DNA from: a virus
DNA length: 30,139 bases
Virus record (IMG/VR): IMGVR_UViG_3300030108_003573
Span: 1 to 30,139 of that record
Reading direction: 5' to 3' (one strand)
In this document: one piece after another, positions 2,879 to 30,139 of the stretch
How the letters are laid out: the number at the start of each line of letters is the position of its first letter
How positions within the stretch are numbered: position 1 is the stretch's first letter
The notes under the pieces: model-generated
What the model was told of the DNA's origin: nothing
Database searches by the model: none
Seen by the model: the letters and a program-made list of their open reading frames with translations, nothing else
Position numbers and translations under genes: made by a program

Positions 2879-3133
2879 TCAGCTGGAATTGCTAAAATCC
2901 CTTAATCTAGTATTTTTAGCTGCAATCTTGGCTATAGCCGTGTCTTGCAATTGCTTAACTCTAACAAAACTTATGCCAAGACGCTCACCGACTTCTCTTA
3001 AAGTCATCGGTCCATGCTTCTCTGCGGCGATAAGTGTGCAGTTCAAATCATCTTTATAGTCAATCCACTGCCGACACTCACAATCCTGACAAGGCTTGTT
3101 CGCCAAAGTAACTCCTATTTTACATTTTCTCAT
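2879..3133 (-). CDS. Sigma region 4-like helix-turn-helix protein
   Basis: An 84-residue protein. Residues ~41-68 (GPMTLREVGERLGISF then VRVKQLQ) match the helix-turn-helix of sigma-70 region 4, which reads -35 elements. The N-terminus carries four cysteines (C4, C15, C18, C20), possibly a small metal site, and one more at C32. No sigma region 2 is present, so it cannot be a complete sigma factor. It may bind DNA or appropriate host RNA polymerase. ATG 3133 overlaps the upstream stop in an ATGA junction, so the two small regulator-like genes are probably translated together. 97 bases without a gene follow; I see no convincing terminator there. Confidence 0.65.
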   Translation of the reverse strand: MRKCKIGVTLANKPCQDCECRQWIDYKDDLNCTLIAAEKHGPMTLREVGERLGISFVRVKQLQDTAIAKIAAKNTRLRDFSNSS

Positions 3134-5696: not shown

Positions 5697-8600
5697 CTAT
5701 CCTAGTAGTCTAAAAGTTCTACCGATTGCTCGGGTTGAAAAGCCCCAATTGGGGTCATAATTAAGCTTTGCCATATACGGACGGTTTAAGAAGATGCGGT
5801 CCTTGTTTGGGTTGACCCCCCAGCACCGCACCTTGGTCAGCGTGCTGGTATCATCAATGCATTCTAGAATCCAGTAATCCTTACCGTTTTTGGTCTTCTT
5901 GGGAATGATGGCTCGCGGAATGAACCACGAGAGCATCAGGTCTGGGTCGTACTCTCCAAGTGGCGGCACGCCATAGTCTTGGAGCTTGCGCAGGACTTCG
6001 CCTGTAATGACCTTCTCCATTGGGAATACACCCGTGAGGTCAACAAGATATTCAATCTTTTCTTCCTCGCTGAAATCTCCTTCGGGCTTGTAGAGTTCCA
6101 CGTTCTCGTCAAGCTTCTTTTGGTTTCTCGGGCGGTCAACAGCCACGGCAGACCAGAAATGCTTGCCGCCAGTGAAGCGGTCGTCAATCAGCGGGTCCAT
6201 TGCGCCTGACCGAATAAGAATGTCGAGCACTCGCTTGTTGACCTTAGAGTAGACCATCTCCTCATTGAACAGAAACTCCTCTACTGTGTTATAAGGACGG
6301 TGTGCCACAATCTGATCAATGGCTGCGTCACCGATACCCTTACAAGAAGACAGGGGCTGAATGAGTGTGTTGCCATCCTCAGAAATTTCCCAGACCTTGC
6401 CAGACGTGTTGATGTTTAGCCCTTCGATATCGAAGTTTTGGCTCTTGGCGATGTTAATTGCCTTCTCCTTACGAGTCTCAGGCTCCTTGTCTAGGAAGGC
6501 TGCAATCCACTCAGCGGGATAATAGTTGAGCAGCCACGCACACTGATAGGACAGGACACAATACGACACGGCGTGAGACTTGTTGAAACCATAGCCTGAG
6601 AAGTATTCAAATGTCTTCCATAGTTCTTCGGCATCCATCTTACGAATGCCCTTTTCCACGCAGCCAGCAATGAACTTGTCATGAATCTTGCGCTTGGCTT
6701 GCGCACCCTTGCCAGTGCCCTTCTTGGTCAGCACCTTACGCAGCAGGTTTCCTTCGTCCAGGGAGACATCCTTGCCCAGCTTGTGAGCCAGCATTGCAAT
6801 CTGCTCCTGGAAAATGAGGAACCCGTAAGTCTCCTTGGTAAGCTCCTCCACCAGTGGGTGCAGATACTTAACATCCAAGGGGTTCTCCTTGGCGTTTACG
6901 TAGGACCGGTCAACGCCGGCGCTCAAGGGTCCTGGGCGGTAGATTGAGGTGATGGCTGCGAGGTCAATGATGCTCTTTGGCTTTGCTCGCTTGCAGAAGT
7001 CTTGTGCGCCAGTCTCTGTGAACTGGAAGACCCCCGCCCACTTACCAGCGTGGAAGATGTTTTCATAAACGTCCTGATCATCAAGATCAATCTTGTCAGG
7101 ATGTAGGTTATTATCATAGTATTCCTTAATCTGGTGATACGTCGGCTCCTCGATGTCATGATGACGCTTGAGGACGTGTCGAATAGCACCCTCGACCATT
7201 CGCAGGGTCGATAGACCAAGGAGGTCAAACTTGATGAACCCCATCGGCTCTAGGTGGCGAACATTCTGCCCCTCGGACCAAGGCGTCTGTCGGACGCCCT
7301 TGCTGTTAATCAGAGGCATGTATCGGTCTAGCTCCTCAGCAATCACCACACCACCAGCGTGACGGGAGCACGAGCGGACCTGTCCGTAGAGCACGTCAAT
7401 GTGGTCAGCCACACTAGAATGCTTTCGCAGGAAGTCCTGAAGGCTCTTGCTGTACTGCTTGACCTCCTCAAAGGTCGGAACATACACACCAGCTGTGATG
7501 CCGTGTGCCTTCTTGGCAGCCGGTGTCGCCTCACGCAGCATCTTGCCTGTGACTGCATTCACCTCAGTAAACGGAATATTGTAGAGCTTGCTGATATCCT
7601 TGATAAGACTTCGCAGCTGAAGTGTGTTCCAGTTGCTGATGGGGACCACTGTGGTATCACCCCACTCTTCCACCAGCTGCTCCTTGAGATACATTGGCTC
7701 AGCGACGTCGTAGTCAATGTCTGGATAGTCCTTGGCGTCTGACCGCAGGAATCGAGAGAATAGCAGTCCATACTTGAGCGGGTCGATCTGGGTGATGCCC
7801 AGGACATAAGCCACCAGAGCACCAGCGGCAGAACCACGACCTGGACCGGTGAGCATCATGTCGTTGGCGCGGTCGGCAATAGCCTTCATTGTCAAGAAGT
7901 ATTTGCTAAACCCACGGTCTTCAATGACGTCCAGTTCGTGGTTGAGCCGGTTGATATACTCCGGGTTGTTCTGCTCGTTGATATCTCGCAGTCCCTCGAA
8001 GCACATCTTGCGCAGCGCTCCAGCGGCTGTTGCGCCCTCGGGGACAACGAAGTCGGGAAGGCGGACGGTCGTGTCAGGGAAGAATGTTTCAATCCTGCCG
8101 TGTGCGATGTGATAAGTTTCCGTCAGCGAGTTCAGCACGAGGTCGTCGTCATACTCCCGACCCACCATCTTAGAATAGTGCTTGTAAGACTCAAACATCT
8201 CGTCGCCGTTCTTGGGATAGAGTTCGTAGCCAATCTCCTCAACGCTGAGTGGAAGCTCTGTGCCGTCTGCCCAGTCGGGCTTACCCTTACCGAGCCAGCC
8301 GAGGCGCTTGTAAAGCTCACGGTCCTTCCAGGCGTTGCGGTTGGGATAGTGACTGTCAGCCGTGGAGATGAGCGGAATGTCAAACTCCTTGTGTATCTGA
8401 ATAATAAACTCGTTTAGGTCATGCTGCTCGGGAACGTTGTTCCACTGCAGTTCGCCATACCAACGGTCACCAAAGATGCCGACCATTCGTCGGGTGGTGT
8501 CCCTCATAGCCTCTAGGACGGCTTCTCTGCCCTCTTCCCTGTTTTCCCAATAGTTACCTGCGTAAACACCGCCGAGGCACGCAGAGGACGCGATAACGCC

Positions 8601-9134
8601 TTCTCCGTACTTTTCAAGCATTTTGTAATCAACTCGGGGATATCGATAGAAGTTCTCGGGCTTGTAGCTCTCGGACACGAGCTTGAAAAGATTCTCAAGC
8701 CCCTGCTGGTTCTGCGCAAGCAGGACGAGGTGGCGACGTCGGTTGAGAATGTTCTTTACGGCTCGCTTGGAAGCGTTCTCGTCCTCTACGGTCGTGCCGG
8801 ATACATCGTCTTCACCCTTCTTTGCCTTCTTCTCTGCGCGCACACGCTCGTACTCCTCACGCCACTCGGAGATGGAGGGAATAAAGTATGCCTCCATACC
8901 GAAGATTGGCTTGAAGTCCTTGCCTTCGGCTTGCATCTTCTGGGCGTGAAGGACTTGTCCTGCGAGCCCGTTCATATTGCCGTGGTCCGTAAGAGCAAGA
9001 GCGTCCATTCCATTGCTATAGGCAAAGTCCATATGCTCGGGGGGATGCCCGATTGCATCAAAGATGGAGCCTGCCACGCTATGTGCGTGCAAGCCTGCAA
9101 ATAGAATGCCTGGTTCTGCTCTGTTAATCGTCAT
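5697..9134 (-). CDS. dnaE: DNA polymerase III alpha subunit, DnaE type, with intact PHP domain
   Basis: An 1145-residue C-family replicative polymerase close in size to bacterial DnaE. The N-terminal PHP domain (~1-270) keeps metal ligands: H16 and H18 in LHAHS, D50-H51 in ALTDHGN, E81, H135, C186 in SACLGG, D260 and H262 in STADSHY. This suggests a live phosphoesterase or proofreading site. The polymerase core has GPGRGSAAG (430-438), catalytic D472/D474 in PDIDYD and D637 in KFDLLGL. Further DnaE motifs follow: IYRPGPLSAG, FQEQIAMLA, LLRKVLTKK and GYGFNKSHAVSY. The C-terminus looks like an OB fold. No beta-clamp motif was positively identified. A TTG at 9149 is in frame, but ATG 9134 is preferred; it overlaps the preceding gene by 11 bases. 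A consensus promoter lies 160-190 bases upstream, inside that gene. Confidence 0.95.
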   Translation of the reverse strand: MTINRAEPGILFAGLHAHSVAGSIFDAIGHPPEHMDFAYSNGMDALALTDHGNMNGLAGQVLHAQKMQAEGKDFKPIFGMEAYFIPSISEWREEYERVRAEKKAKKGEDDVSGTTVEDENASKRAVKNILNRRRHLVLLAQNQQGLENLFKLVSESYKPENFYRYPRVDYKMLEKYGEGVIASSACLGGVYAGNYWENREEGREAVLEAMRDTTRRMVGIFGDRWYGELQWNNVPEQHDLNEFIIQIHKEFDIPLISTADSHYPNRNAWKDRELYKRLGWLGKGKPDWADGTELPLSVEEIGYELYPKNGDEMFESYKHYSKMVGREYDDDLVLNSLTETYHIAHGRIETFFPDTTVRLPDFVVPEGATAAGALRKMCFEGLRDINEQNNPEYINRLNHELDVIEDRGFSKYFLTMKAIADRANDMMLTGPGRGSAAGALVAYVLGITQIDPLKYGLLFSRFLRSDAKDYPDIDYDVAEPMYLKEQLVEEWGDTTVVPISNWNTLQLRSLIKDISKLYNIPFTEVNAVTGKMLREATPAAKKAHGITAGVYVPTFEEVKQYSKSLQDFLRKHSSVADHIDVLYGQVRSCSRHAGGVVIAEELDRYMPLINSKGVRQTPWSEGQNVRHLEPMGFIKFDLLGLSTLRMVEGAIRHVLKRHHDIEEPTYHQIKEYYDNNLHPDKIDLDDQDVYENIFHAGKWAGVFQFTETGAQDFCKRAKPKSIIDLAAITSIYRPGPLSAGVDRSYVNAKENPLDVKYLHPLVEELTKETYGFLIFQEQIAMLAHKLGKDVSLDEGNLLRKVLTKKGTGKGAQAKRKIHDKFIAGCVEKGIRKMDAEELWKTFEYFSGYGFNKSHAVSYCVLSYQCAWLLNYYPAEWIAAFLDKEPETRKEKAINIAKSQNFDIEGLNINTSGKVWEISEDGNTLIQPLSSCKGIGDAAIDQIVAHRPYNTVEEFLFNEEMVYSKVNKRVLDILIRSGAMDPLIDDRFTGGKHFWSAVAVDRPRNQKKLDENVELYKPEGDFSEEEKIEYLVDLTGVFPMEKVITGEVLRKLQDYGVPPLGEYDPDLMLSWFIPRAIIPKKTKNGKDYWILECIDDTSTLTKVRCWGVNPNKDRIFLNRPYMAKLNYDPNWGFSTRAIGRTFRLLG

Positions 9135-9999
9135 CTGGTTCGTATCCAATCCTGTTGTATTCGTGGTATTTAAGAATGTGTGGTCCTGGGTGCTTGACCT
9201 CTTTGCGGTCTTCGGAGCCCATATATGCGCAATAATTGTCCCAATTGTCGATGGGATGATACCAAGGGACCTCGACCACCTTTGCGTCTTCCATTATAAC
9301 ATGTTGGAAGATAGTGTCAAGCTTAAAATTTTTGGCGGGGTTTTTTCCCTCCATTAACTCTGCCTTGATGAGGTCTTTGCGGCGCATTCTCACAATGTCG
9401 CGGAGATGCTTGTAGCCTTTTTCGTCAAAGCTGAATCCGAGATATGAGCCATTCTTGACTGTGTTTCCTTGGTATCTCAAAAAGAATGGACGCTCGGATG
9501 AAATATCTTTGCGGTGCGGACGTATTAGTTCTGTCGGGTATACCGCTTGGGGGAACGCTACGTAGTACATTCGGGGCGCCAGATACTTGCTGATGTTATC
9601 GCAGACCTTAAAAGCCCGATACGCACCATATAGAATAGACCACGGCAGGCAATCCCTGCGTCCCCTGTCGTATGGATGGATTGGGACGTAGTAAAGCGGG
9701 ATACGCTTGCGCCGTTCTGATGGAAATGGGTCCATTCGGTTAAAATACACCGGATCCATCACAAACTCACCCAGACGATGACGGATAAGCGGGCTTACAT
9801 CGTCGTTACAGACGATCCAGATGGTTTCACAGCCTGCCCAGGCGCATTCTGTCACAGCACGCTCAATAGCCGTATAGTTGGGTGCGATAGGGGTCAGACA
9901 GTCTGACCACTCCATTCCAAAGTCTGATTGTTCCACCGATACAGGGATTACTCCAGCCAAATGAAACGCATTTGGGTGATTTAGTCCGTTTTCAAGCAT
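9124..9999 (-). CDS. Possible nucleotidyltransferase-like phage protein
   Basis: A 291-residue protein. The N-terminal half (AFHLAGVIPVSVEQSDFGM, then DCLTPIAPNYTAIERAV and ETIWIVCNDDVSPLIRHRLG) has the rhythm of GT-A-fold nucleotidyltransferases: a glycine-containing first strand, a conserved substrate loop with Asp and Pro-Ile, an AERAV-type helix, then a strand ending in Asn-Asp-Asp. I recall similar proteins in other large marine phages, where they are unassigned. The C-terminal half (~150-291) has no motif I know. A sugar- or base-activating role, perhaps in DNA or surface modification, is only a hypothesis. ATG 9999 has a weak ribosome site and overlaps the preceding gene by 19 bases. 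A consensus promoter at 10005-10033 feeds it, and another inside it (9293-9320) feeds DnaE. Confidence 0.6.
   Translation of the reverse strand: MLENGLNHPNAFHLAGVIPVSVEQSDFGMEWSDCLTPIAPNYTAIERAVTECAWAGCETIWIVCNDDVSPLIRHRLGEFVMDPVYFNRMDPFPSERRKRIPLYYVPIHPYDRGRRDCLPWSILYGAYRAFKVCDNISKYLAPRMYYVAFPQAVYPTELIRPHRKDISSERPFFLRYQGNTVKNGSYLGFSFDEKGYKHLRDIVRMRRKDLIKAELMEGKNPAKNFKLDTIFQHVIMEDAKVVEVPWYHPIDNWDNYCAYMGSEDRKEVKHPGPHILKYHEYNRIGYEPDDD
9293..9320 (-). promoter_or_regulatory. Consensus sigma-70-type promoter for dnaE
   Basis: Minus-strand TTGACA (9315-9320), 16-base spacer, TATAAT (9293-9298) with an extended TG(T). It lies inside the 9124-9999 gene, about 160 bases before the DnaE start, and would give a separate dnaE transcript. 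Confidence 0.7.
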
Positions 10000-12299: not shown

Positions 12300-12584
12300 T
12301 TATACTTCCCGTTCTACTATTCCTAAAATATAGTTTTCCAATACTAAATAGAAGGTTTCTCCCTCAAAAGTCACCTCTTTTAGCATAGATCGTTCTACCA
12401 TTAGGGTATCACCAGCCATTAGCAGCTGGGAGACATCGGGGGCAACTGACAGAACTGAAACAGCTGCGTAAGGGGACTGAGGTTTGCGATAGTTCTCAGG
12501 TAAGAGCACAGCGCGCTCCTCATCTTGTTCCTCCTCATCCTGGGGAATTACTAATAGGTGACGATTTCTAGGGTTTAACATCAT
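12300..12584 (-). CDS. GroES-like co-chaperonin
   Basis: A 94-residue protein with the length and layout of Cpn10/GroES. NPRNRHLLVIPQDEEE corresponds to the first strand of the barrel (GroES: RPLHDRVIVKR). An acidic 18-residue segment lies where the mobile loop sits. AAVSVLSVAPDV matches GEVLAVGNG, LLMAGDTLMVERS matches VKVGDIVIFND, and FYLVLENYILGIVE matches the C-terminal strand ending ILAIVE. Phage co-chaperonins such as T4 gp31 replace GroES so that the host GroEL chamber folds phage capsid protein; that role here is inference. The mobile loop lacks an obvious GroEL-binding hydrophobic tripeptide, though AVLLPENY is a candidate. ATG 12584 overlaps the upstream stop. Confidence 0.65.
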   Translation of the reverse strand: MMLNPRNRHLLVIPQDEEEQDEERAVLLPENYRKPQSPYAAVSVLSVAPDVSQLLMAGDTLMVERSMLKEVTFEGETFYLVLENYILGIVEREV

Positions 12585-18092: not shown

Positions 18093-19205
18093 CTAATCGT
18101 TATCAGGTTCGTAAAAATCTGCAGCATTTCCTTGCCTCTGGTCAAACCTGAAGATTACCTCTTCGTCCATTACTTCGAGCACACGAGCCTTGAATTTCTC
18201 CTCTGCCATATACTCCATCCAGCGGGATGCCTGGAACTTCTGGGACGTTCCATCGCCCATATCAAGTTCATACCAAGCGCCTCGCTGGGAGATGTGAGAG
18301 GAACCCCTGATGGCGTCGAATAGGCTCTCGTCGTCTTGGATGCCAATTTGGTCACCCCAAAGAATCTTGAAATTACACTGTCGCCCCTGAGTACCAAAGC
18401 GAGACTTTTCTAGCTTCACCTTGACCTCGGAACCAATGCGGAAACCGTTGTCGTCAGTGACGAAAGAAGCCTTCGCCTTACGCCCTGTAAGCCACACGCG
18501 GAGCGAATACGCATAGATCATCGCTTTTCCGCCTGGCGTCACGTAGGGGGTGGTCATAGCCTCCGCTGGCATACGTGTGATATTAGTCTTCAGCTGGTTG
18601 AGGACCAGGAATGTAGATTGCGTATTGGCAATAGGCTGCGTGAGCTTGGACATACCCTTGGCAAGGATACGTGCCTTGACAGCCATTGACGACTGTGGGT
18701 TGAAGTCGCCCTCTACGTCAGAAATAGCTGGAGTTAGTGCGAGAGAATCCCAGATAAACAAAACTCTATTGTCTGTTGCTCCGAGGATTTCCTCGATGGT
18801 CTCCAGCACGAATTCTACGGACGCTGCCTGGACATACAATAGGCTTTCCAGGTCGCATCCAGCCTTTACAAGGAAGGTCGGGTCAATAGCGGACTCTGAA
18901 TCAAAGTATACCACGTCCATACCCATCTTCTGGGCGTTGCCGGCAATCTGTGCTGCCATATAGGACTTGCCTGTAGCCTCTAAGCCGGCGATCTCTACGA
19001 CCTTGCCGACAGGGATACCACCGAGCTTTCCTCGGCAGATGATGGAGTCCAGCCAACGTGAGCCGGTCGGAATCCAGTCCTTTACTTCGGTTGGATTTTC
19101 TTCTGTTAGGTCGTGGGCAACGTTCATGCCCGCCTTTTTATTAATAAGATTTCTCATATCCGCCAAAGACAGCTTTCCTGTCTTGGCTTTTGAAACTCTA
19201 GCCAT
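18093..19205 (-). CDS. RecA/UvsX-like recombinase
   Basis: A 370-residue strand-exchange ATPase that forms filaments on single-stranded DNA for recombination-dependent replication and repair. It has Walker A GLEATGKS (74-81), catalytic Glu104 in YFDSESAID, Walker B VLFIWDSLA (148-156), and a region around STFLVLNQLKTNI with the sensor Gln. TPGGKAMIYAYSLRVWL matches the region after the DNA-binding loop. The C-terminus is acidic (DFYEPDND), as in many recombinases. A GTG at 19211 is in frame, but ATG 19205 with AGGTG upstream gives MARVSKAKTG and is preferred. It is transcribed from its own promoter and followed at once by the deaminase promoter. Confidence 0.93.
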   Translation of the reverse strand: MARVSKAKTGKLSLADMRNLINKKAGMNVAHDLTEENPTEVKDWIPTGSRWLDSIICRGKLGGIPVGKVVEIAGLEATGKSYMAAQIAGNAQKMGMDVVYFDSESAIDPTFLVKAGCDLESLLYVQAASVEFVLETIEEILGATDNRVLFIWDSLALTPAISDVEGDFNPQSSMAVKARILAKGMSKLTQPIANTQSTFLVLNQLKTNITRMPAEAMTTPYVTPGGKAMIYAYSLRVWLTGRKAKASFVTDDNGFRIGSEVKVKLEKSRFGTQGRQCNFKILWGDQIGIQDDESLFDAIRGSSHISQRGAWYELDMGDGTSQKFQASRWMEYMAEEKFKARVLEVMDEEVIFRFDQRQGNAADFYEPDND

Positions 19206-19229
19206 TTTCACCTCGTTTTAGTTTGTTTT

Positions 19230-20341: not shown

Positions 20342-21148
20342 TCACCCTATAATTAGTATCTCTGAGGACTTACCCATCTTTTTGCCTCCAACGTTTTTCA
20401 TCCCGTAAGCCCATTCGGCTTCGCGGATTTCATAATTGTTGTAGAGGTCTCGGATTTCTTCGCAATCGTTGTAGGACAAGACCCAGCCAGAACGTTGGCT
20501 GAGGATGTCGTAGAGGGCTCTGTGGTCAAAGCCTGCGTGCGTGCTGCCCTGGTCACCATATAGCTTGTCCTTGTCCTCTCCAAGCAGGTATGGCGGGTCG
20601 CAATATAGGAATGCGCCAGGGTGTTTGTTAATTGAAGTTTTAAAATCTTCACAATTAACTGTTATGTTGGGCTCTCGGAAGTTGTAGATACGGTCAATGG
20701 AGCTGTCGGTGAAGCGCTTGTAGGATGCGCGCTTTGACCAACCACCGGAGAACGTTGCCCCGGAAAAGCTACTCCGATTGATTGCGTAGAACTTGGCTGC
20801 GTTAGTAAAAGAGAAGCGGTCGCTCTCTCTCAGCTCGTTCCGAAGACGTATAAAATCCTCTTTTAGAAGTCCTTCGTGCCCTTCAAAGTCAGGATGCTCT
20901 TTTCGGTAAGAATCCGCACAAATCGCCAGCAAACGGGGGTCTGTTAGCAGAGCATCCCAGAACCACACGAGTGGTTCAAAGATGTCGTAAGCGTGGACGG
21001 GTGTCCCTCGGGCAGCAACAGCAAGCTCCACCGACCCACCCCCGAGGAACGGAGAGCAAAGCTCCGTTATGTCCTCGGGGATGAGAGGGAGGATGTGCTT
21101 TACAGCACGAGACTTTCCACCAGGATATCGGAGTGGAGTCTTAGGCAT
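20342..21148 (-). CDS. dam: DNA N6-adenine methyltransferase, Dam (D12) type
   Basis: A 268-residue class D12 methyltransferase that transfers a methyl group from S-adenosylmethionine to adenine N6 in DNA. The SAM-binding motifs are LRYPGGKSR (6-14) and PFLGGGSVEL (33-42). The catalytic motif is DPPY (184-187). The target-recognition region lies between them, with INRSSFSGATFSGGW (~123-137) typical of Dam-like enzymes. GATC is a plausible target by family, but specificity cannot be read from the sequence. Its ATG immediately follows the stop of the ParB-like gene, and its stop lies 5 bases before the putative nuclease start, so all three should be co-expressed. Confidence 0.93.
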   Translation of the reverse strand: MPKTPLRYPGGKSRAVKHILPLIPEDITELCSPFLGGGSVELAVAARGTPVHAYDIFEPLVWFWDALLTDPRLLAICADSYRKEHPDFEGHEGLLKEDFIRLRNELRESDRFSFTNAAKFYAINRSSFSGATFSGGWSKRASYKRFTDSSIDRIYNFREPNITVNCEDFKTSINKHPGAFLYCDPPYLLGEDKDKLYGDQGSTHAGFDHRALYDILSQRSGWVLSYNDCEEIRDLYNNYEIREAEWAYGMKNVGGKKMGKSSEILIIG

Positions 21149-22294
21149 CTATACCGTGTATGTAGTGTGGGTATCTGCAGCAGTCTTTAGCTGCTTGGCA
21201 AAGGACACAAACTTAATGTCCAAGCTTACATTCAACTTGCTCAAAAGAGTATTCATATCTCTAACTCGATTTAGAAACTTATTGCGTGCAGAATCTAGGG
21301 CTGCCTTGTCAGTCGAAGGCTTATAAATTCTAGCAGCAATGTTGATATGCCGAATGTTGTTATTTTGTAGATTATTACGATACTCGTCGTCGGAATGATA
21401 ACGTTCTACAATACCAAATACCTTTTCTTGAAGGTGGCGCCCATTATCGTCGACCGCAACAATCATTGCATTGTTGGCAGTGTCAAAGTGTTCATCCGAA
21501 GCGCAGCGTGTTAGCTTTCCGCGAGCATTTTGGCGCAGACCTGGGTTCCAACCAATAGACTGAAGATGAGCGGTCAGCGCAGCGTCATCAATTTCGACGA
21601 GCTTTGCACGGTTAGGAGCATCAACAAGCTCTTTGTAAATCTTTGTTCGCGTGCCCTTGTGGGGAAAACGATCTGGACCCATGACCCGGTCTACAAGGTC
21701 ATCAAAGCTAAAACTTCCGTTACTAGTCTCCCTGGGTGGAATACCCGTGCCGGTGTAGCGACCATCCTGGGTGGGGTTCATCCTTAGTGCCTCTGATAAA
21801 ATGTAGACAGCGTCCTTGCGATTGTATGTCCTATGTGTCTGTGGCTTATTTGCCTGGACACCTTGAACTATATTAATATCAGCGGGCACACTGCCACCAG
21901 TAATGTTATAGTTCTTCGAGACGGTAATAACTGGTATCTTCTCGCCAAGCTGATCCATCGAGTAGGCTCGGTGATGACCCGTAAGCATGTTGAAATTACC
22001 CGGACTGTGAGATGCCTCCTCGACCAGTGGAGGGTTTTGGAGTCCGTCCCGCTTGATAAGAGGGATTAGATACTCCTTGCAGCGAACTTTGTCAAAAATT
22101 CTTTCTGCAACCTGGCGCTCTATAAGGTCCGTATAGTCTACCTCCTTAAAGCCAGTAATGAATCGTCGACAATCCCCGGTGCGAAGGGCATCAGCAAAAT
22201 CGTCATAAGGGTTATTATATGGTGTATTCGCATCCAATTCTGCCAATACCTTGTCTTCTTGCGCTTGCAGCGCCTCAAAATCTACCGTATTCAT
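21149..22294 (-). CDS. ParB/sulfiredoxin-fold N-terminal domain protein
   Basis: A 381-residue protein. Residues ~76-125 read LIPLIKRDGLQNPPLV, then NFNMLTGHHRAYSMDQLGEKIPVITV (from 101). This is the ParB-like nuclease-domain pattern: a helix ending in G-x-x-x-P-x-V, a strand, then the [IL]-x-GHHR box (106-109) and an LG-x-x-I-P-V strand. In ParB the corresponding arginine box binds CTP. The C-terminal half (KDAVYILSEALRMNPTQDG, and HKGTRTKIYKEL) could hold a DNA-binding helix pair, but I do not recognise it. Such domains occur in partition proteins and in phage methyltransferase gene clusters. It precedes the Dam-type gene with no gap and has GGAGGTAGA before ATG 22294. Confidence 0.7.
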   Translation of the reverse strand: MNTVDFEALQAQEDKVLAELDANTPYNNPYDDFADALRTGDCRRFITGFKEVDYTDLIERQVAERIFDKVRCKEYLIPLIKRDGLQNPPLVEEASHSPGNFNMLTGHHRAYSMDQLGEKIPVITVSKNYNITGGSVPADINIVQGVQANKPQTHRTYNRKDAVYILSEALRMNPTQDGRYTGTGIPPRETSNGSFSFDDLVDRVMGPDRFPHKGTRTKIYKELVDAPNRAKLVEIDDAALTAHLQSIGWNPGLRQNARGKLTRCASDEHFDTANNAMIVAVDDNGRHLQEKVFGIVERYHSDDEYRNNLQNNNIRHINIAARIYKPSTDKAALDSARNKFLNRVRDMNTLLSKLNVSLDIKFVSFAKQLKTAADTHTTYTV

Positions 22295-22312
22295 TCTACC
22301 TCCAAAAGAAAT

Positions 22313-22335
22313 GGGGCACCTGTAACCCGTGCCCC
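22313..22335 (-). terminator. Rho-independent terminator after the SSB gene
   Basis: A 7-base-pair stem GGGGCAC/GTGCCCC (22313-22319 with 22329-22335, 9-base loop) with ATTTCTTTT following on the minus strand. It separates the SSB gene from the ParB-like gene. No promoter was found for the downstream trio, so some readthrough is likely. Confidence 0.7.
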
Positions 22336-22349
22336 CCTGCGGTTCTGAA

Positions 22350-23105
22350 TTAAGCGTTCATCAGCTCGTTGAATGCATTGTCCACCGAGTCAGTGTTGTT
22401 GTTCGCATACTGTACGGTCTCCGTAGAGTTACCCTCAGCGTCAACACCACCAGAAATAAACTCTTCTAGAAGCTTCTCAACCTCATCAGGGCTCTTGCGC
22501 TCGAAAAGCTCCATGATATCCTGAATGGAGTTGAGGTACATCGTCGTCGTATCCGTATCCTCAGAGAGGGGCGAGGAACGACGGCGAGGCTGCAGCTTCG
22601 TTTGCGGGAACTGGGCACCAGCGGGCTTGCCATACTGGAGCACGAGGTCAGTTCCCTCATCAGTATCGGTGATATCACCGTAATCTGGGTTTAGCACTAG
22701 ATTCAGCAGACTCTCATAGGCAGTCTTGCCATAGCCCCACCAACGAACACCGTCAGTCTCCTCGCCACGGACAAGAACCGGGCTAAAGAAGCGCTGTCGC
22801 ACGAAGAGGCTCTTTGCCATCTTCTTGGAGGACTCATCATTCTTATCTGCACCTTCACGCCATAGATTGGAAGCAAAGTCACAGATAGGACACGAGTCCC
22901 CGAAGTTACGCTTAGGGCATAGAATACCACCCTTAGTTACATTATAGTGAAAATAGACCTCCTTGAAGGGGTCGCCGTCTTCGGTAGGCACCACACGAAT
23001 TGTCTGGTTACCGTCGTTCGGGCGCCAAAAGGCACTCTTAGAGCTATCTCCATTGTTCTGCACTGCAGCGAGCTTTGCTCGCATCTTTTCTAGATTGATT
23101 CCCAT
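22350..23105 (-). CDS. Single-stranded DNA-binding protein, T4 gp32-like
   Basis: A 251-residue protein that coats single-stranded DNA at the fork and in recombination. The N-terminal basic helix (GINLEKMRAKLAAVQ) matches the gp32 cooperativity region. SAFWRPNDGNQTIRVVP starts the OB-fold core. A zinc site is visible as His53 in YFHYN, Cys63 in ILCPKRNFG, and Cys72/Cys75 in SCPICDF, an HCCC set as in gp32 with slightly shorter spacing. The C-terminal ~75 residues are acidic and would bind replication partners. It is transcribed from a perfect-consensus promoter with a hairpin at the start of its leader, and followed by a terminator, consistent with high, separate expression. Confidence 0.9.
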   Translation of the reverse strand: MGINLEKMRAKLAAVQNNGDSSKSAFWRPNDGNQTIRVVPTEDGDPFKEVYFHYNVTKGGILCPKRNFGDSCPICDFASNLWREGADKNDESSKKMAKSLFVRQRFFSPVLVRGEETDGVRWWGYGKTAYESLLNLVLNPDYGDITDTDEGTDLVLQYGKPAGAQFPQTKLQPRRRSSPLSEDTDTTTMYLNSIQDIMELFERKSPDEVEKLLEEFISGGVDAEGNSTETVQYANNNTDSVDNAFNELMNA

Positions 23106-23133
23106 ATTGTTTTTTTCCTTTATTGGTTATAGT

Positions 23134-23157
23134 AAGTCGAGCAAATCTTCCCGACTT
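23134..23157 (-). promoter_or_regulatory. Hairpin in the SSB mRNA leader
   Basis: An 8-base-pair stem (23134-23141 with 23150-23157, one G-U pair, 8-base loop) at the 5' end of the predicted SSB transcript, which should start near 23160. The remaining ~30 bases to the ATG are A-rich and unstructured. Confidence 0.5.
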
Positions 23158-23166
23158 CTACCATTG

Positions 23167-23195
23167 ATTATATCAAAATTTGGGGTATATGTCAA
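23167..23195 (-). promoter_or_regulatory. Perfect-consensus sigma-70-type promoter for SSB
   Basis: Minus-strand TTGACA (23190-23195), 17-base spacer, TATAAT (23167-23172) with an extended TG(A). It is the strongest-looking promoter in the window, in the 93-base gap before the SSB gene. Confidence 0.8.
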
Positions 23196-23198
23196 GAA

Positions 23199-24029
23199 CT
23201 ATTTTTCTTGAACGATTGAGCTGTAGGCTACGCAATAAACGTAGTCTTCGTCATATTGAGTGGGGTATATCCCATAAGTGGTCTTAGTATTTTTGGCGTT
23301 TTCTTTTACCTGTGCTATGACCCGTTTATGAATATCCCCTTGAGTCTTTAACTTTTTTTCATTGATAGCATAATAATACACTTTTTCTCGCACGTTGTCA
23401 AGATCAAAAAACATTTTTTCTTCACCTGTCTCAAAGTCGACGAGACCATAGGATACAATGCGACTAATCTGATGAGGAGGAGAAATATTGTCCATTACGC
23501 TATCGCTGTGTGAAAGCACATTGACCATATGCATAGTAGGGACAAGTAATTCGTTTAGTTGTTCATAAAATCCGATTACAGGTAAGTCTCCCAATATTTC
23601 TTCCAAGCGCGTGTTATCAATTAAAACTACTTTCTCAAACACTCCAGAGCGTGCATATTCCTGAAAGACGTTAAAAGTAACCCTCTGTTGCAGTCGCGCA
23701 GTCTCACCAATCAATTCAGGGTCTGAAAAAATATACAACACATGTAATCTACATTTTTTAACTTGTTCCAAAATCCGTAGTGATGCGCCGCTAATCATAC
23801 CGCAGCCAGACACGACAAACAACACATCTCCTTCAACATTTTTAAAAAATGTCTTGAGACTGCCTACTGATTTTTCGAAATTCTCTGGACCTTCTGATGC
23901 TTTGACGCCATAAGTCCTGGGTGTTCTCTTAAGTCCGACGTCCATCTGATACACCTCATATTGAGGATACTGAGCAAACCTGTGTGCAATTCTGCAGCCG
24001 GCTTTGCCAAGACCAATTATTGTTTCCAT
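23199..24029 (-). CDS. Divergent tubulin/FtsZ-superfamily GTPase-like protein
   Basis: A 276-residue protein whose segment order follows FtsZ/tubulin. IIGLGKAGCRIAHRF (4-18) matches the first strand and T1 loop (FtsZ VIGVGGGG). GDVLFVVSGCGMISGAS (67-83) matches the strand and T4 signature loop (FtsZ GGGTGTG), here degenerate as GCGMISG. HVLYIFSDP (96-104) matches TVAVVTKP. A helix with Gly129 precedes KVVLIDNTRLEEIL (133-146), matching VITIPNDKLL with Asn139. FYEQLNELLVPTMHMVNVL (154-172) matches the core helix H7, followed by ISRIVSYG. It is ~100 residues shorter than FtsZ. GTP binding and filament formation are inferred. Phage tubulins (PhuZ, TubZ) position or segregate DNA. It overlaps the polymerase gene by 13 bases. 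Confidence 0.65.
   Translation of the reverse strand: METIIGLGKAGCRIAHRFAQYPQYEVYQMDVGLKRTPRTYGVKASEGPENFEKSVGSLKTFFKNVEGDVLFVVSGCGMISGASLRILEQVKKCRLHVLYIFSDPELIGETARLQQRVTFNVFQEYARSGVFEKVVLIDNTRLEEILGDLPVIGFYEQLNELLVPTMHMVNVLSHSDSVMDNISPPHQISRIVSYGLVDFETGEEKMFFDLDNVREKVYYYAINEKKLKTQGDIHKRVIAQVKENAKNTKTTYGIYPTQYDEDYVYCVAYSSIVQEK
23373..23401 (-). promoter_or_regulatory. Second candidate promoter upstream of SSB, inside the tubulin-like gene
   Basis: Minus-strand TTGACA (23396-23401), 17-base spacer, TATTAT (23373-23378). It lies within the coding region of the tubulin-like gene, about 270 bases before the SSB ATG. It may simply be coding sequence, but the match is close (11 of 12). Confidence 0.5.
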
Positions 24030-25204
24030 TCTCTCATATCCCCATAGCTCTTGCCATATTTTACATTAACTCCGAACTTTCCTAAAGCAGTATTTGAGAA
24101 ATGTTCAACTAAAACGTTGATTAAGGCGCACTCGCCATCCGTTAAATCTAAAACGACCTCGTCATGGACGCAAAATGCAACATGTGATGCCTTATCTTGA
24201 AGGTATTTATCCAACTTGATCATTTGGCGCAGCACAACATCAGAACAAGTGCTCTGAATAAGATAGCTCATTGCGTGGTGGGCATCAGCTGGAATGGTTC
24301 TGTTAAACGGATTCTTCACAGCTCTACCATCCCAGTGCTTGTTTATGACCGCACCCTTGTCGTATACTCGCTCAGCAACGTTGTCCTTGGACCTTGGATT
24401 GTAAAGCCACGCAAAGAATCTTTCCTTAACTTCTTCTCTGGTTCCAAGGCTGTCATAGACGTTCTGGCGGTTCCAGTCGTGGACATCAAAGTCAGGCTGC
24501 TCCATCTCGGACAAAGCTAGAAACGTGCGCAGCTCTGCACCGTTGAAGTCAAGAGAGACAAACCAGTCGTTGGTCGGCGTGACGACCTTGCGAAACTTCT
24601 TGTCCATTGTGAGGATTGGAAAGCTGTTCTTCTTTGTGGTCAGGCGCCCAGTCTTTGTCCCAAAGATATTGTAGTCGCACGAAAGTGAAATATGACCTAG
24701 CTTCTTTGTAAAGTCCCTCGTTCGCTTCTGGTGCATGAGGTCGCGGAGAGCCCAGGGGTCGACCTGGAGCTTACGATGTTTAATATCGTGGAGCACCTTA
24801 GTCAGGTCTACCAGAAAATCATAGTTGTCGGGCTTATGGTAGTTTTTAAAAACATACTCAGTAATCTTGTTTTTCATCTCGCAATACTCTCGCAGAAAGC
24901 GCTCGTTTACGAGGTCAAAGAAGCAGTTTTCGGTAAGGTCTATTTTAGCCGCCGTAAAGGCACGTAGGAACGCCTTCATTCTTCCATTGATAGTTTCCCA
25001 CTCCTCAGCGAGATCGCGCGGACAGGTGCCCTCTAGAGGCTTCTGGGCATATAGAAAAGCATACTCCATATCCCTCCTGTCACGAAGGAAGGCAGAGTAG
25101 TTCCAAGTGTGCGTCAGTCCCTCGGGAACAGCGTCAAAATGCAACTCATTGTTACAGTAAACGCCGACACACTCTTCTTTGTTGTCAAGTGTCTGAAAAA
25201 TCAT
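24017..25204 (-). CDS. Compact family A DNA polymerase (PolA catalytic domain)
   Basis: A 395-residue family A polymerase with only palm, fingers and thumb; no 3'-5' or 5'-3' exonuclease domain is present. The landmarks are FGTKTGRLTT (181-190, usual TGRxSS), motif A SLDFNGAELR (217-226) with catalytic Asp219 and Glu224, and motif B Arg256-Lys260-Phe264-Tyr268, whose 4-residue spacing equals that of the O helix in Klenow. Motif C is CVHDEV (345-350), with His347-Asp348-Glu349. Motif A reads FNGAELR where most enzymes have YSQIELR. A 5'-3' exonuclease is encoded separately at 16687-17649. Its ATG overlaps the preceding stop (TAATG). It may replicate or repair phage DNA alongside DnaE; the division of labour is unknown. 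Confidence 0.92.
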   Translation of the reverse strand: MIFQTLDNKEECVGVYCNNELHFDAVPEGLTHTWNYSAFLRDRRDMEYAFLYAQKPLEGTCPRDLAEEWETINGRMKAFLRAFTAAKIDLTENCFFDLVNERFLREYCEMKNKITEYVFKNYHKPDNYDFLVDLTKVLHDIKHRKLQVDPWALRDLMHQKRTRDFTKKLGHISLSCDYNIFGTKTGRLTTKKNSFPILTMDKKFRKVVTPTNDWFVSLDFNGAELRTFLALSEMEQPDFDVHDWNRQNVYDSLGTREEVKERFFAWLYNPRSKDNVAERVYDKGAVINKHWDGRAVKNPFNRTIPADAHHAMSYLIQSTCSDVVLRQMIKLDKYLQDKASHVAFCVHDEVVLDLTDGECALINVLVEHFSNTALGKFGVNVKYGKSYGDMREWKQ

Positions 25205-26424
25205 TAATATGTGGGGCTAAGGTTTCTACCAGTTCGAATAGATTCACGGTCCACAACAATCTTTGCAAAAGAGCCGCTATAGTTCGCAAACCCATTCAAT
25301 TTATCATTGATGAGGGTCAGCGCTGCTGTCATACCCTGTGTCGCTAAAATAGAGGGAATATTCTTTTTAAGACTAACAATATCACCTTCACTGATTGGAA
25401 GTTCTTGTTCAGCATACCTTATATCAATATATTTGTCAAGCCAAAAGTTCTCAGGGTATATTTGTTCTATCTCTTCAAACCTAATTGTCTTTCGACAGAC
25501 CCTAGCTTTTCTATTGTTCACCACCGTTCTTACAAACCTTTTGGTCAAGGACAGCTCATTATACAAATCAAAAGCAAATCTTTTTAACTCCTCGATATCA
25601 GAGGCTCCCAAGCGCTGATAATTTACCTTCAACACATCGTTCTCTGTATTCAAGCCGTATACCGCTGCATATTGTAACATGAACGGGTTGGCGATATCAG
25701 CCACAAGCTCCCAAGGTCGATTTTTATTTACAAAGAAACCGTGCTTTTTTAAAACTTCAAGATAATATTGAAAGTTTGGTGAAGTTATGAAAGACTCTTT
25801 ATCCTCATCGTTGGTAGGGTCCAAATCGGAGACAGATATTACAAGACCAGAAACAGCCGGCGGGCAAAACTTAGTTGTTGTAAACGCAGTGGTTGTCAAA
25901 ACGGATGATTCAGTTAAGTCCGCTATGTATTCTAAGAATACAGGCACGAATGACCTGAAATTTAGAATTCTTTGATTTCTTTTACTTGTGAGAAACACGT
26001 CGAAAAAGACTCGTTTGAGGCTGGCTCTATAATTGTTGTATACGCTCTGTAGGTTAATATGCCCTGCATATGCTTTTAAATTATATAAGAAAGGATCCGA
26101 GCTGTCAAGCTTTCCTTGCACGGAAGCTTTTTCAAATTCTTGAACCACTTGTGCAAATGCATCCGCAACAAAGTTAACTGCAGCCACCTCAGCTTTAGGG
26201 TCATCAACTTTTTCAATTCTTTTTAGCCCCGTCTTCACCAGAGATATTGGATTGTGATTTTTATTTATTCTCCCATATAACATATACTCTGCAAAATTAA
26301 AGTCCCGAATAGGATGAAGATATAAGGACGTAGCGCTTCGAGGAAACGCTTGTTGGGAATATTTTAATCTTTGGTAAAACAGCTCGGTTGAGCCAAGGTC
26401 GTTTTTTCCTTCAAAGTTTGTCAT
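25204..26424 (-). CDS. Unknown phage protein, possibly virion-associated
   Basis: A 406-residue soluble protein I do not recognise. Visible segments include SATSLYLHPIRDFNFAEYML (30-49), a helical region ~80-150 (VADAFAQVVQEFEKAS) and TTKFCPPAVSGLVISVSDLD (~183-202). The C-terminal half contains PWELVADIANPFMLQYAAVY and ends in RESIRTGRNLSPTY. No transmembrane segment or catalytic motif is evident. It overlaps the 1182-residue virion protein by 3 bases and the polymerase by 3 bases, so it sits exactly between virion and replication genes. A structural role is inferred from the upstream neighbour only. A consensus promoter lies inside it. Confidence 0.7.
   Translation of the reverse strand: MTNFEGKNDLGSTELFYQRLKYSQQAFPRSATSLYLHPIRDFNFAEYMLYGRINKNHNPISLVKTGLKRIEKVDDPKAEVAAVNFVADAFAQVVQEFEKASVQGKLDSSDPFLYNLKAYAGHINLQSVYNNYRASLKRVFFDVFLTSKRNQRILNFRSFVPVFLEYIADLTESSVLTTTAFTTTKFCPPAVSGLVISVSDLDPTNDEDKESFITSPNFQYYLEVLKKHGFFVNKNRPWELVADIANPFMLQYAAVYGLNTENDVLKVNYQRLGASDIEELKRFAFDLYNELSLTKRFVRTVVNNRKARVCRKTIRFEEIEQIYPENFWLDKYIDIRYAEQELPISEGDIVSLKKNIPSILATQGMTAALTLINDKLNGFANYSGSFAKIVVDRESIRTGRNLSPTY
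26080..26108 (-). promoter_or_regulatory. Perfect-consensus sigma-70-type promoter inside the 406-residue gene
   Basis: Minus-strand TTGACA (26103-26108), 17-base spacer, TATAAT (26080-26085). It lies within coding sequence, about 880 bases before the family A polymerase ATG, and could separate replication-gene transcription from the virion operon upstream. Confidence 0.6.
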
Positions 26425-29400
26425 TAATTATTTCCCCCCTGACCTTGATTTATGGCTCTTGTGGTAGGCGTCGGCGAGTCAGTCAAGCTCTGTGCCTCTA
26501 TCTCTTCTGGGCACCTTTCCTCGCGACCAGCTGTTTGTTCTGCTCCGGAGAAGCCAAGTGCGCCTCTAGCGCCCGATGCCACAAAAATAGCCTTCATAGT
26601 AGTCTCGAACTTGCCCCCCTGAATATAAGAGCGAACGCCCGTGACATCATGGTAGCCACCTATCCCAAGCAAGTTAGCGGGAGAATATGGCTCAGCTGGG
26701 CTTCCGAGCATTGGAGCGATTCCGGAAGGGTTTAAGAATACTTTCATTCCTGGGGCAAACATGGTGTTACCAAACATTGTGATCTCTATTTCATAAACAT
26801 TTGCCAGAATTGTTAAACCTGTAGCTGATGCCTCTGCGTCCGCAGCCTGAAACCTACCTTCTCTAAGAAATGGTAGATCTGTTTTGGAGAATTTAACAGA
26901 CTTAAAGATACCTCGATCTTTTCCTATTCCAAAGTGATATATGCCACGTTCATTATCCTCAGTGAAGTTGCCCCGTCGTCGTTCTGTTGACCCTGGATTA
27001 ATGGCGTATACTAACATGTAATGATACGTTCGTTCGCCCTCGTTGGGAGCCCTTAGCAACGGACGCAGGGATGTTGGAATCCCGTCGACGTCTAATCTAG
27101 TAAAGTCTTGAGGGGTGTCAAATCCCAACTGTTGACGCAAAGCAGCGCGAGATCTTGGGTCTGGTAGGATATTAAAATTGTTTTGAACTATGTCGCCGCC
27201 ACTAACATCAGCTGCAGCAGAGAAAAAGTTAGACCTCAACTGCAGGTTTTGACGCGCAATATTTCCAAAGCCGTGCGCCTGGTTTCGCATGATATTAGAG
27301 AGCATCTTGTTCGCCAAGTCGCGAACAAACACCAATATTGGATATGTGGTCCTCTGTTCTGAGATCGCTTGTTTTAGAAGCCACTCACCAAAAAAACTCA
27401 CAGATATTGGAATATCAGCCAGATTTATGTTATACAAAAATTCAGTCTGTGCGGGCAAGTCAGGCTGCACAGGCTGCAGAGTGCGCTTAAAACTTATTGG
27501 TCCCAAAAGTATACGCAAATCCTTTTGCAATTTGCCCACCATTCCAGCAGAGGGATTTTGACCTGCGTTGGGAGGAACCGATGTTGAGGCTTGTTCAAGA
27601 GCAACTTTTATTAAGTCTCCAAAAAAGAAATACTGTAGATTTAAATTCCTTGCACTTGGGTCATAAGCTATATCTTGTATCTTCTTAAGTATTGTATCGT
27701 CGCTAACATTCTGACCGCTAAGTGATAAAATCTGCGCTAATTGTCCAGAGGATTGAGACGCAACATTTGAGAAGTCAACATCTACTGCTGAAGAATTATT
27801 ATTGGAATTATTGAGCACTGAATTAACTGCTCTGGTATTAACACCCGACTCGCCGAAGTTAATATATCTTTGTAAACTTGTAACTGGCACCGGCACGTAA
27901 TATATTCGCTGCTCGTCGACAAGCCTTTTTAGCAAACTTTGATAAGAGTTTAGGCGCTCAGCTCGTAGAACTCCCTTATAGTTTTCAATAATTCTATTGA
28001 CCTCTTCTTCATTGCAGCGGCTCCGAGCGCGATCAATCTGTGCGCGGCGCTCAAGTCTTCTCTGCTTAAGCTCAGGGGTTGCTAGGACATCAGAGTCTTG
28101 ATCTAGATATGAAGCCTCTTGCCAGGCGACATACTGAATTGACATGTTTACATTACCCTGATCGTTTACATCGATTGAATGGTCAATGGCAGTTAAGTAC
28201 ATCACCATCCTAGAATTTACAACAGCATCTCTTTTTGCCTCGCGTTCCTGGCGAGTGCCCAAAAAGGCATTTTCTGAGCCAGGGTCTTGCCAGCCCACAT
28301 CAACTTTAAGTTTATAATAATCTGGATTCCAAGCGCCCTCGCGGGTCTGCCTGACTACGCCGATATTAACAAGGTCAACATACCTGAATGAGCGCATCTC
28401 GCTTTTCAAATCTGTAGAGCCCAGCTTTCTAACTCTCAAAATTTCATCAAAACTTTGAAAATGAAGCTTTAATTCTGCAAAAATGTCTCTTCGAGAGGTG
28501 AAGGGGTCTCTACCCTCAAGTCGCCAATCAAAACTCGTCAGACCCACTCCCCTGCCGCGATCAAACGCATTCTTCATCATTGACCCTATTTCGGATTGTT
28601 GAATATAGTTGTCAAATGGTATTTCTTGCTCCTCGTATGTTACTTGAGTTTCGTCGACGTTTTCTGCATTATCTGTGTCGGAAAAAACTTTGAACAGCCT
28701 TATCTTTGGAACAAGACCCGCTAGCTCAGAGGGTCTTAATAAATCCATCTGCTGCAACGCAGGATTATGCATTAAGCGATTTACCACAGTATCAGTGCGT
28801 CCATGAATCATACTAAAGTAAGGGGCGCCTGAATCTTCGCTTAGATAAGTAGGCACTCGAATCTTCTGATTTTGCTTGGCAAAATCTGGAAGGTGGTCTA
28901 TAAGAAATGCCTGCTCGGCTAACCGCCTCAATTGAGACTGGATCTCTTGGCTTCCTCGGTCCTCTTCGGGCACAGTCTGCTCCTGGACTCGGCGAGCCTC
29001 TATCTGTCCCAGAAGCTCTTGTGCCTCTTGAAAGTCCCTGGTGTTCTGGGGACCGCTGGGATCTGCCAGGGTCTGTTGTGCATCCTCTGGCAGCTCGTCA
29101 ATAGACTCGTGTAATATCTCATTAGTTCGAGACCTAATAAACAAAGCCACTATCTCGTCTAACCCAATATAGTCTATTACTTCGCTCTCAGCTGGCTCTG
29201 AGCCGTTTCTGGCAAAGAGGGTGTAATACGCCCATCTAAAGTTTGTCTTAGCGTTGTAAAGTATTCCAGCTGGGCTGGAGGGCGTTTCGCTCGGACTTTG
29301 ACTAAAGAATATCGCGGTTCTCCTGAGTCTGTTTACTTGGTCTGCGTCTGATAGACCTCCAGCATCTGCGTTCACCACCCTTTCTCTAAAAGCTGCTTCA

Positions 29401-29972
29401 AGGATGTCGTCAACCTGACCAGGCTCTTTTGCCGCTTCACGGGCTTCACCAGCCTTTTGTGCGAGGGTGGCTCTGCCGGCAGTGCGCAAAGCTTCTTGAC
29501 GATTGTTTCGCTCAGCGAGCCTGGTAAGGGCTTCCCTGCGCTCCTCGGAACCCGCAGGTCCAAGGCTATTGAGATATCTTTCGCTGTAGACCACGCCGGG
29601 GGTTGCAAGACGAGCAATATCTGCATCACTAACAGGATCTGCCGTTGCCAAAATTGCTGTATACACAAAAGAGTTTAAGGCAGTATTGCGCAGCTTGTTT
29701 ACATTCCACTCATCATTTGAGTAATTTAAATCTGGAGAGACGGGCATAAACCGGCTTGGGTTTCCCGGCGCAGGATTGCGAGAAGAAAAAACTCGCAGGT
29801 CGCTGACGCGCTCGCCCGCATCGTCGCGCCCCACCATGTCATCGATAGTGTCTCGTCGTTTTGTATCCAAACCACGCCACAAGGCGACAGCGTCGGTGCC
29901 GATTCTCCTCCTTGTGTATTCCGCACCAGCGGTATTTTCAATTATTTGCTCTTTTTCTTGATCGGTTGCCAT
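26424..29972 (-). CDS. Large virion protein, probably baseplate or tail
   Basis: An 1182-residue protein. The N-terminal ~250 residues are helical and rich in Ala, Arg, Glu and Gln, with likely coiled coil around 120-210. The middle has several Asn/Gln-rich linkers (for example NSNNNSSAVD). The C-terminal domain at ~1060-1135 (YEIEITMFGNTMFAPGMKVF, then LGIGGYHDVTGV and KFETTMKAIF) is strand-rich, with the order seen in tail and baseplate hub-type proteins: a field of strands, an NPS turn, a GIGGYH box and a final T-T-x-x-A strand. The last ~45 residues are a low-complexity tail. The frame opens at 30008; ATG 29972 with AAGAGAG upstream is preferred and lies directly after the LysM/gp53-like gene. 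No enzymatic motif is seen. Confidence 0.7.
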   Translation of the reverse strand: MATDQEKEQIIENTAGAEYTRRRIGTDAVALWRGLDTKRRDTIDDMVGRDDAGERVSDLRVFSSRNPAPGNPSRFMPVSPDLNYSNDEWNVNKLRNTALNSFVYTAILATADPVSDADIARLATPGVVYSERYLNSLGPAGSEERREALTRLAERNNRQEALRTAGRATLAQKAGEAREAAKEPGQVDDILEAAFRERVVNADAGGLSDADQVNRLRRTAIFFSQSPSETPSSPAGILYNAKTNFRWAYYTLFARNGSEPAESEVIDYIGLDEIVALFIRSRTNEILHESIDELPEDAQQTLADPSGPQNTRDFQEAQELLGQIEARRVQEQTVPEEDRGSQEIQSQLRRLAEQAFLIDHLPDFAKQNQKIRVPTYLSEDSGAPYFSMIHGRTDTVVNRLMHNPALQQMDLLRPSELAGLVPKIRLFKVFSDTDNAENVDETQVTYEEQEIPFDNYIQQSEIGSMMKNAFDRGRGVGLTSFDWRLEGRDPFTSRRDIFAELKLHFQSFDEILRVRKLGSTDLKSEMRSFRYVDLVNIGVVRQTREGAWNPDYYKLKVDVGWQDPGSENAFLGTRQEREAKRDAVVNSRMVMYLTAIDHSIDVNDQGNVNMSIQYVAWQEASYLDQDSDVLATPELKQRRLERRAQIDRARSRCNEEEVNRIIENYKGVLRAERLNSYQSLLKRLVDEQRIYYVPVPVTSLQRYINFGESGVNTRAVNSVLNNSNNNSSAVDVDFSNVASQSSGQLAQILSLSGQNVSDDTILKKIQDIAYDPSARNLNLQYFFFGDLIKVALEQASTSVPPNAGQNPSAGMVGKLQKDLRILLGPISFKRTLQPVQPDLPAQTEFLYNINLADIPISVSFFGEWLLKQAISEQRTTYPILVFVRDLANKMLSNIMRNQAHGFGNIARQNLQLRSNFFSAAADVSGGDIVQNNFNILPDPRSRAALRQQLGFDTPQDFTRLDVDGIPTSLRPLLRAPNEGERTYHYMLVYAINPGSTERRRGNFTEDNERGIYHFGIGKDRGIFKSVKFSKTDLPFLREGRFQAADAEASATGLTILANVYEIEITMFGNTMFAPGMKVFLNPSGIAPMLGSPAEPYSPANLLGIGGYHDVTGVRSYIQGGKFETTMKAIFVASGARGALGFSGAEQTAGREERCPEEIEAQSLTDSPTPTTRAINQGQGGNN

Positions 29973-29973
29973 C

Positions 29974-30139
29974 TTATACTCTCTTAAGGACTGTGAGCAC
30001 TCGATCAAGGGGAACCGGGATAAACAATAGATCGCCCTCCTTGAAGTGCGATTCGGTTGGCTTCATATTATACCATGCAATCACCCACCAGTGGGTCGGG
30101 TCGCCGTAGTGCTTTTGCGCCAGCTTATATAGCCTATCG
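29974..30139 (-). CDS. LysM/gp53-like baseplate protein, 3' end only
   Basis: The last 54 codons of a gene that continues beyond the window edge. They read DRLYKLAQKHYGDPTHWWVI, then AWYN, EGDLLFIPVPLDRVL and a basic end. The pattern L-A-x-x-x-Y-G-D-x-x-x-W-W-x-I-A followed by G-D-x-L-x-I-P is the LysM-like motif of T4 gp53-type baseplate wedge proteins and of phage tail LysM proteins. This supports a contractile-tail phage. The stop (29974-29976) lies one base before the ATG of the 1182-residue gene. Confidence 0.75.
   Translation of the reverse strand, partial: DRLYKLAQKHYGDPTHWWVIAWYNMKPTESHFKEGDLLFIPVPLDRVLTVLKRV

Follow-up and report, generated by a model that had tools for sequence, protein, structure and literature searches.

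The window analysed here, a 30-kb (30,139 nucleotides) IMG/VR fragment from an uncultured virus of bacteria, contains a block of DNA replication genes in which an open reading frame (ORF) for a protein of the tubulin/FtsZ fold lies between a family-A DNA polymerase gene (polA) and a gene for a gp32-like single-stranded DNA-binding protein (SSB). The features of the locus are listed in Table 1. As read from the sequence, the tubulin gene starts inside the 3' end of polA with an overlap of 13 nt, so that the preliminary description of the locus, which had the ORF overlapping a family A polymerase and preceding SSB, held on both points. Beyond SSB, the DNA genes are those for a UvsX-like recombinase, a 5'-3' exonuclease, a DnaB-like helicase and ribonucleotide reductase, and profile matches (Pfam/PHROG) add ThyX, DnaE-like polymerase and dUTPase genes to this series. 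The two orphan genes upstream of polA gave no significant match, in Pfam, PHROG or PDB in the case of the 406-aa product and in Pfam or PHROG in the case of the 1194-aa product. No gene of the window could be recognised as a capsid gene, no iteron array was detected in the surroundings of the tubulin gene (21100-26500), and the gene is not near division genes.

Table 1. Features of the tubulin-fold gene and its surroundings (residue numbers refer to the 276-aa protein; conservation percentages were obtained with 148 representatives below 90% identity)
Feature	Position	Strand	Details
Tubulin/FtsZ-fold protein ORF	23199..24029	minus	276 aa, ATG to TAA
Gly-rich first loop IIGLGKAGCRIA, residues 4-15		minus	read from translation
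T1 glycine loop GLGKAG, residues 6-11	23997..24014	minus	G6 96%, G8 99%, G11 97%
Second signature-loop segment VVSGCGMISGAS, residues 72-83		minus	read from translation
T4-like loop GCGMISG, residues 75-81	23787..23807	minus	G75 80%, G77 88%, S80 89%
Family signature VFQEYARS, residues 121-128, end of H5	23646..23669	minus	Q123 and R127 100%, S128 99%
N139, T6-loop Asn, proposed guanine contact	23613..23615	minus	97% conserved
N159, helix H7, proposed guanine contact	23553..23555	minus	97% conserved
T7/H8 segment, residues 174-190	23460..23510	minus	without conserved acid, without helix
Short family-A DNA polymerase (PolA)	24017..25204	minus	395 aa; Pfam DNA_pol_A 4.4e-14
gp32-like SSB, next gene downstream of tubulin gene	22350..23105	minus	Pfam gp32 2.1e-16, PHROG 1192 2e-26
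UvsX/RecA-like recombinase, same replication block	18093..19211	minus	PHROG 97 5.2e-56; gene order conserved
Orphan gene directly upstream of polA	25204..26424	minus	406 aa; order kept in almost every locus of sufficient length
Second orphan family upstream of polA	26424-30008	minus	1194 aa; present in almost every carrier locus of sufficient length
ORF between SSB and UvsX, weak ParB-like match	21149-22294	minus	phrog_4715, E 0.011
Cpn10-like co-chaperonin	12300-12584	minus	just below cut-off
DnaE-like polymerase III alpha	5697-9149	minus	1150 aa
IMP dehydrogenase/GMP reductase-domain protein	3471-4517	minus	PF00478, 3e-103
Sigma-70 region 4 protein	2879-3133	minus
ClpP-like protease	869-1549	minus

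Some further genes of the window deserve a mention of their own. The DnaE-like polymerase III alpha coexists with the very short PolA, which is without an annotated exonuclease domain. The ORF with the weak ParB-like match is absent from that position in most relatives. The IMP dehydrogenase/GMP reductase-domain gene recurs in 10 of 13 large contigs that carry the tubulin gene, and none was found in Flavobacterium phage immuto (L111, NC_055915.1); phage-encoded guanine-nucleotide metabolism thereby accompanies a proposed GTP-binding protein.

Searches of Pfam, PHROG and PDB by hmmsearch with the sequence alone returned nothing significant and consistent for the tubulin-fold family. Matches to FtsH_ext, SirA, TrkA_N and PHROGs of unknown function were at chance level, differed between members and were rejected. 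The Pfam Tubulin profile (PF00091) touches 5 of 30 members with a best E of 0.0055, below its curated cut-off, and a genome search also stayed below the cut-off. The AlphaFold2 model of the 276-aa protein, built with an alignment of 30 homologues, reached a mean pLDDT of 93.6 and a pTM of 0.91, and a Foldseek search of the PDB placed FtsZ first (E 6.7e-13, probability 1.00, TM 0.71), with an identity to FtsZ of 10-14% over the fold match. The independent model of a second member, L030 (about 35% identical; first row of alignment A2; pLDDT 92.2), gave the same kind of match list, from E 6.7e-14. For both of these divergent proteins the top 50 PDB matches were all FtsZ, TubZ, CetZ or tubulin with probability 1.00, those of the window protein including TubZ 4ei7 (E 1.3e-12), CetZ 3zid and tubulin. 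The GTPase domain, helix H7 and the C-terminal domain expected of the fold are all present. These results show, at the confidence of predicted models, that the protein has the fold of the tubulin/FtsZ superfamily; the missed PF00091 cut-off is a family-level sequence criterion and is, with the same confidence, outweighed by the fold.

In profile-profile comparisons (hhalign, run with non-default realignment settings), PhuZ scored 36.8 and the best of 100 column shuffles 21.7. The result for FtsZ was borderline, with scores of 25.0-28.5 against a shuffle maximum of 27.8 and a next best shuffle of 20.5. Since sequence profiles barely detect the fold, the family has gone unnoticed so far. The tubulin/FtsZ-like fold proposed in the preliminary description was thus confirmed by AlphaFold2 and Foldseek with two divergent members, and all the FtsZ-like segments that it named are present in order. 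It would have been refuted by a non-tubulin fold or by another family matched with high significance; this was checked and did not occur. The profile-profile check that it suggested found PhuZ clearly and FtsZ only weakly.

The T1 and T4 loops are kept in the family in modified form, as GLGxAG and G(S/C)GxISG, and hhalign paired the GCGMISG loop of the window protein with GGGTGTG of FtsZ. A strand ending in YIFSDP (residues 99-104), a VLIDN segment (residues 135-139) and helix H7 (residues 154-173), which carries N159, complete the series. N139 and N159 we take to be the equivalents of tubulin Asn206 and Asn228, on the basis of their position in the model and of the alignment, without a modelled ligand. 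Over the 148 representatives the nucleotide-site residues are conserved to 88-100%. We infer that GTP or GDP is bound through the canonical pocket, whose residues were assigned from alignment and secondary structure. The most conserved motif of all, VFQEYARS, is family-specific and lies outside the classic nucleotide motifs; we infer that it could possibly be a partner-binding site.

Computation also shows that the family has lost the catalytic T7 acids, helix H8 and the C-terminal tail. Asp/Glu stays at or below 70% in every column of residues 174-190, and the stretch 174-184 is entirely free of these acids in 14 of the 147 members. As controls, the NxDxxD-type T7 motif was recovered in 7/7 FtsZ and the paired T7 acids in 9/9 PhuZ. 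The models of two proteins only 35% identical both lack a helix between H7 and S7, and both chains stop just past the last strand, the window protein six residues beyond it, leaving no H11, tail or C-terminal peptide. Because the T7 acids and H8 are missing, a dynamic filament of the PhuZ/TubZ type is less likely than the preliminary description implied.

Relatives of the protein are encoded by at least 584 IMG/VR stretches, and a second search gave 596 of 600. With three members as queries, tblastn recovered no relative from 50,697 named phage records, nor did a scan of bacterial and archaeal genomes reveal one, whether prophage or cellular. Family members are 265-317 aa long (median 279.5). 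Pairwise comparison of the tubulins from 118 loci in which the tubulin, PolA and SSB genes are all complete gave a median identity of 43% and a minimum of 25%. With respect to its six nearest relatives the gene has a dN/dS of 0.1 or less (dS being saturated in several pairs). Since 147-148 non-redundant members also share the conserved motifs, the ORF is not a product of chance.

A Gp23-type major capsid protein scored above the cut-off in all nine large carrier contigs. The carriers are therefore T4-like phages, of about 150-200 kb, which does not imply strict Far-T4 status. Chimallin was found in none of these nine contigs, which may be incomplete, while the controls phiKZ and RAY were positive. 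Related carrier sequences come from aquatic phages and number in the hundreds. The open-access literature that we searched holds no report of a tubulin or FtsZ for this T4-like phage group, and the papers on Far-T4 phages (PMC4360716, PMC7198788) do not mention either.

The place of the gene within the replication block is strongly conserved. Upstream sequence is available for 154 unique members; PolA lies no more than 300 bp upstream in 122 of them and no more than about 2.7 kb upstream in 150. Of the 140 members with downstream sequence, 103 have SSB at a distance of up to 300 bp and 139 at a distance of up to about 3 kb. No TubR-like neighbour occurs in this conserved gene order. Conversely, each of the 74 polA loci with room downstream carries the tubulin gene, a figure that applies to this clade, as the PolA sequences examined were those nearest to that of the window. 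Fifteen contigs of 46-204 kb each contained exactly one tubulin copy. The pairwise identities of tubulin and PolA are correlated with r = 0.85 (permutation maximum 0.07), above the values for tubulin and SSB (0.73) and for PolA and SSB (0.71). The tubulin-fold gene is thus a single-copy core gene, co-inherited with PolA in the replication block. The most frequent spacings between PolA and tubulin (-13, -4, +1 and -1 nt) are as expected for translational coupling, and the operon position suggests a role in replication without proving it; both inferences are made from sequence alone, without biochemistry.

The gene order polA-X-SSB-recA-exonuclease-DnaB-Nrd is shared with immuto. The slot between polA and SSB is occupied there by two small unrelated genes, which were rejected as tubulin candidates. 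The whole genome of immuto and the Far-T4 isolate RM378 gave no tubulin match, in searches run without a positive control.

How might such a protein work? The reading that we favour, and to which we give about even odds, is that of a nucleotide-binding factor with poor or no hydrolysis that is made alongside the replisome and organises it; both function and polymerisation are inferred here, in the absence of biochemistry. The protein is a minimal member of the tubulin/FtsZ superfamily specific to a large uncultured group of T4-like phages, and would hold GTP or GDP in the canonical pocket. Since the T7 loop, which completes the active site of the neighbouring subunit, is gone, we infer that it would not form a dynamic GTP-hydrolysing filament but a nucleotide-dependent stable oligomer or adaptor. 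Its synthesis would be in step with that of PolA, through the overlapping start, and of SSB, and the oligomer or adaptor would organise or position the phage replisome or DNA. Filament formation stays possible, because polymerisation is usual among proteins of the tubulin fold and static filaments are formed by PhuZ even when its T7 loop is mutated (PMC7950403).

Among the alternatives, a true cytomotive or scaffolding filament of the PhuZ/TubZ kind, whose mechanism of hydrolysis would be altered and which would centre or segregate phage DNA, remains possible. It is supported by the tubulin fold, by PhuZ as the best profile match, by the filaments that T7-mutated PhuZ still makes (PMC7950403) and by the phage actin AlpC, which is needed for prophage DNA replication (PMC4446434). 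Against it stand the missing T7 acids, H8, H11 and C-terminal tail, together with the lack of an adjacent TubR-like gene, of a nearby iteron array and of chimallin. We consider it unlikely that the protein is a degenerate tubulin serving another activity, for example as a nucleotide/dGTP sensor or a structural polymerase subunit, without any GTP-dependent assembly. The loss of the polymer interface would fit this view, as would the short PolA with its very high correlation to the tubulin and the precedent of a Nitrosopumilus FtsZ homologue, though the GTP motif was lost there too (PMC3684127); however, the conserved pocket residues suggest that nucleotide binding still matters.

It is likewise improbable that the protein blocks host cell division by capping or poisoning host FtsZ filaments. 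Division inhibitors are common in lytic phages, and a nucleotide face that is kept while the T7/H8 face is lost has the appearance of a capping decoy. Such a decoy, however, needs FtsZ-like surfaces, yet the identity to FtsZ is just 10-14% and the profile similarity to PhuZ is higher, and a universal, co-inherited place between polA and SSB would be unusual for a host-takeover gene. Finally, an ordinary Rossmann enzyme or dehydrogenase could have been taken for a tubulin, since the N-terminal GxGxxG resembles dinucleotide-binding loops and a few members have weak TrkA_N and Pyr_redox matches. This is all but excluded by the fold search, in which the top 50 PDB matches of two divergent members belonged without exception to the tubulin/FtsZ superfamily with probability 1.00; at model confidence, a plain Rossmann enzyme is refuted.

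Returning to the favoured stable, replisome-organising factor, a bolder version of it would be a tubulin relative without GTP-driven filament dynamics that has become a standing part of the replication machine and a core gene of a widespread group of uncultured T4-like phages. We regard this version as possible but less likely than not, and to our knowledge no tubulin or FtsZ relative has an established standing role in a replication machine. The preliminary description suggested that the protein represents a new subfamily and is linked to replication; the data on the family, on synteny and on co-inheritance support both suggestions. A cytoskeletal nature of the protein has not been shown, as the T7 acids and H8 of canonical GTP-driven filament turnover are missing. 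A fold kept under strong selection without its catalytic loop allows its worth to be tested apart from hydrolysis-driven dynamics, and the family connects a tubulin relative with phage DNA replication in a specific way that can be tested.

Compared with known systems, the family shares with PhuZ of phiKZ-like jumbo phages (phrog_4733) a phage-encoded tubulin/FtsZ fold and the best profile-profile score among those tested (36.8; shuffles up to 21.7). Nevertheless, neither the window protein (P0001; E up to 1) nor ten other members (up to 0.5) matched phrog_4733, against which PhuZ itself scores 4.6e-118. PhuZ keeps the T7 acids (9/9), whereas our family is without them and without a C-terminal helix or tail, and its carriers, unlike those of PhuZ, are T4-like and lack the phage-nucleus shell protein chimallin. 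TubZ of Bacillus-type plasmids and phage c-st has the same fold (4ei7, E 1.3e-12; the comparison is a PDB fold match, without TubZ reference sequences), but the present family has no TubR-like neighbour, iteron centromere, H11 or tail and resides in a replication block instead of a plasmid partition locus. FtsZ of bacterial and archaeal cell division gave the best PDB fold matches (E 6.7e-13, TM 0.71), and its motif order T1, T4, T6, H7 aligns with the window protein, which differs in its 10-14% identity, in having neither an NxDxxD T7 loop nor H8, C-terminal linker or peptide, and in the absence of division genes nearby. The Nitrosopumilus FtsZ homologue also misses the T7 loop, but it lost the GTP-binding motif too and does not polymerise (PMC3684127), whereas the pocket residues of our family are conserved. 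The closest predicted viral structure is A0A6J5RW92 (BFVD), an 'FtsZ Cell division GTPase' of an uncultured Caudovirales phage, with a TM of 0.80 normalised by query, 15% identity and 452 aa versus 276. We also observed an unannotated FtsZ-like protein with a GGGGGTGTG loop, adjoining a PcfJ-domain gene, on the 149-kb Marinomonas algicola plasmid NZ_CP061942.1 (L122:61-1023); FtsZ matches in 'phage' records appear to be host sequence and were discarded. According to a 2020 review, phage tubulins form two groups, TubZ and PhuZ, and are confined to large phages (PMC7950403). The family does not show the features tested for these two, as the preliminary description had anticipated for sequence and context, nor those tested for FtsZ, and it is therefore neither FtsZ, PhuZ nor TubZ. 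It adds a third lineage of phage tubulin-superfamily proteins, core and single-copy in T4-like phages of about 150-200 kb, which is likely best filed as a new phage-specific subfamily of the tubulin/FtsZ superfamily.
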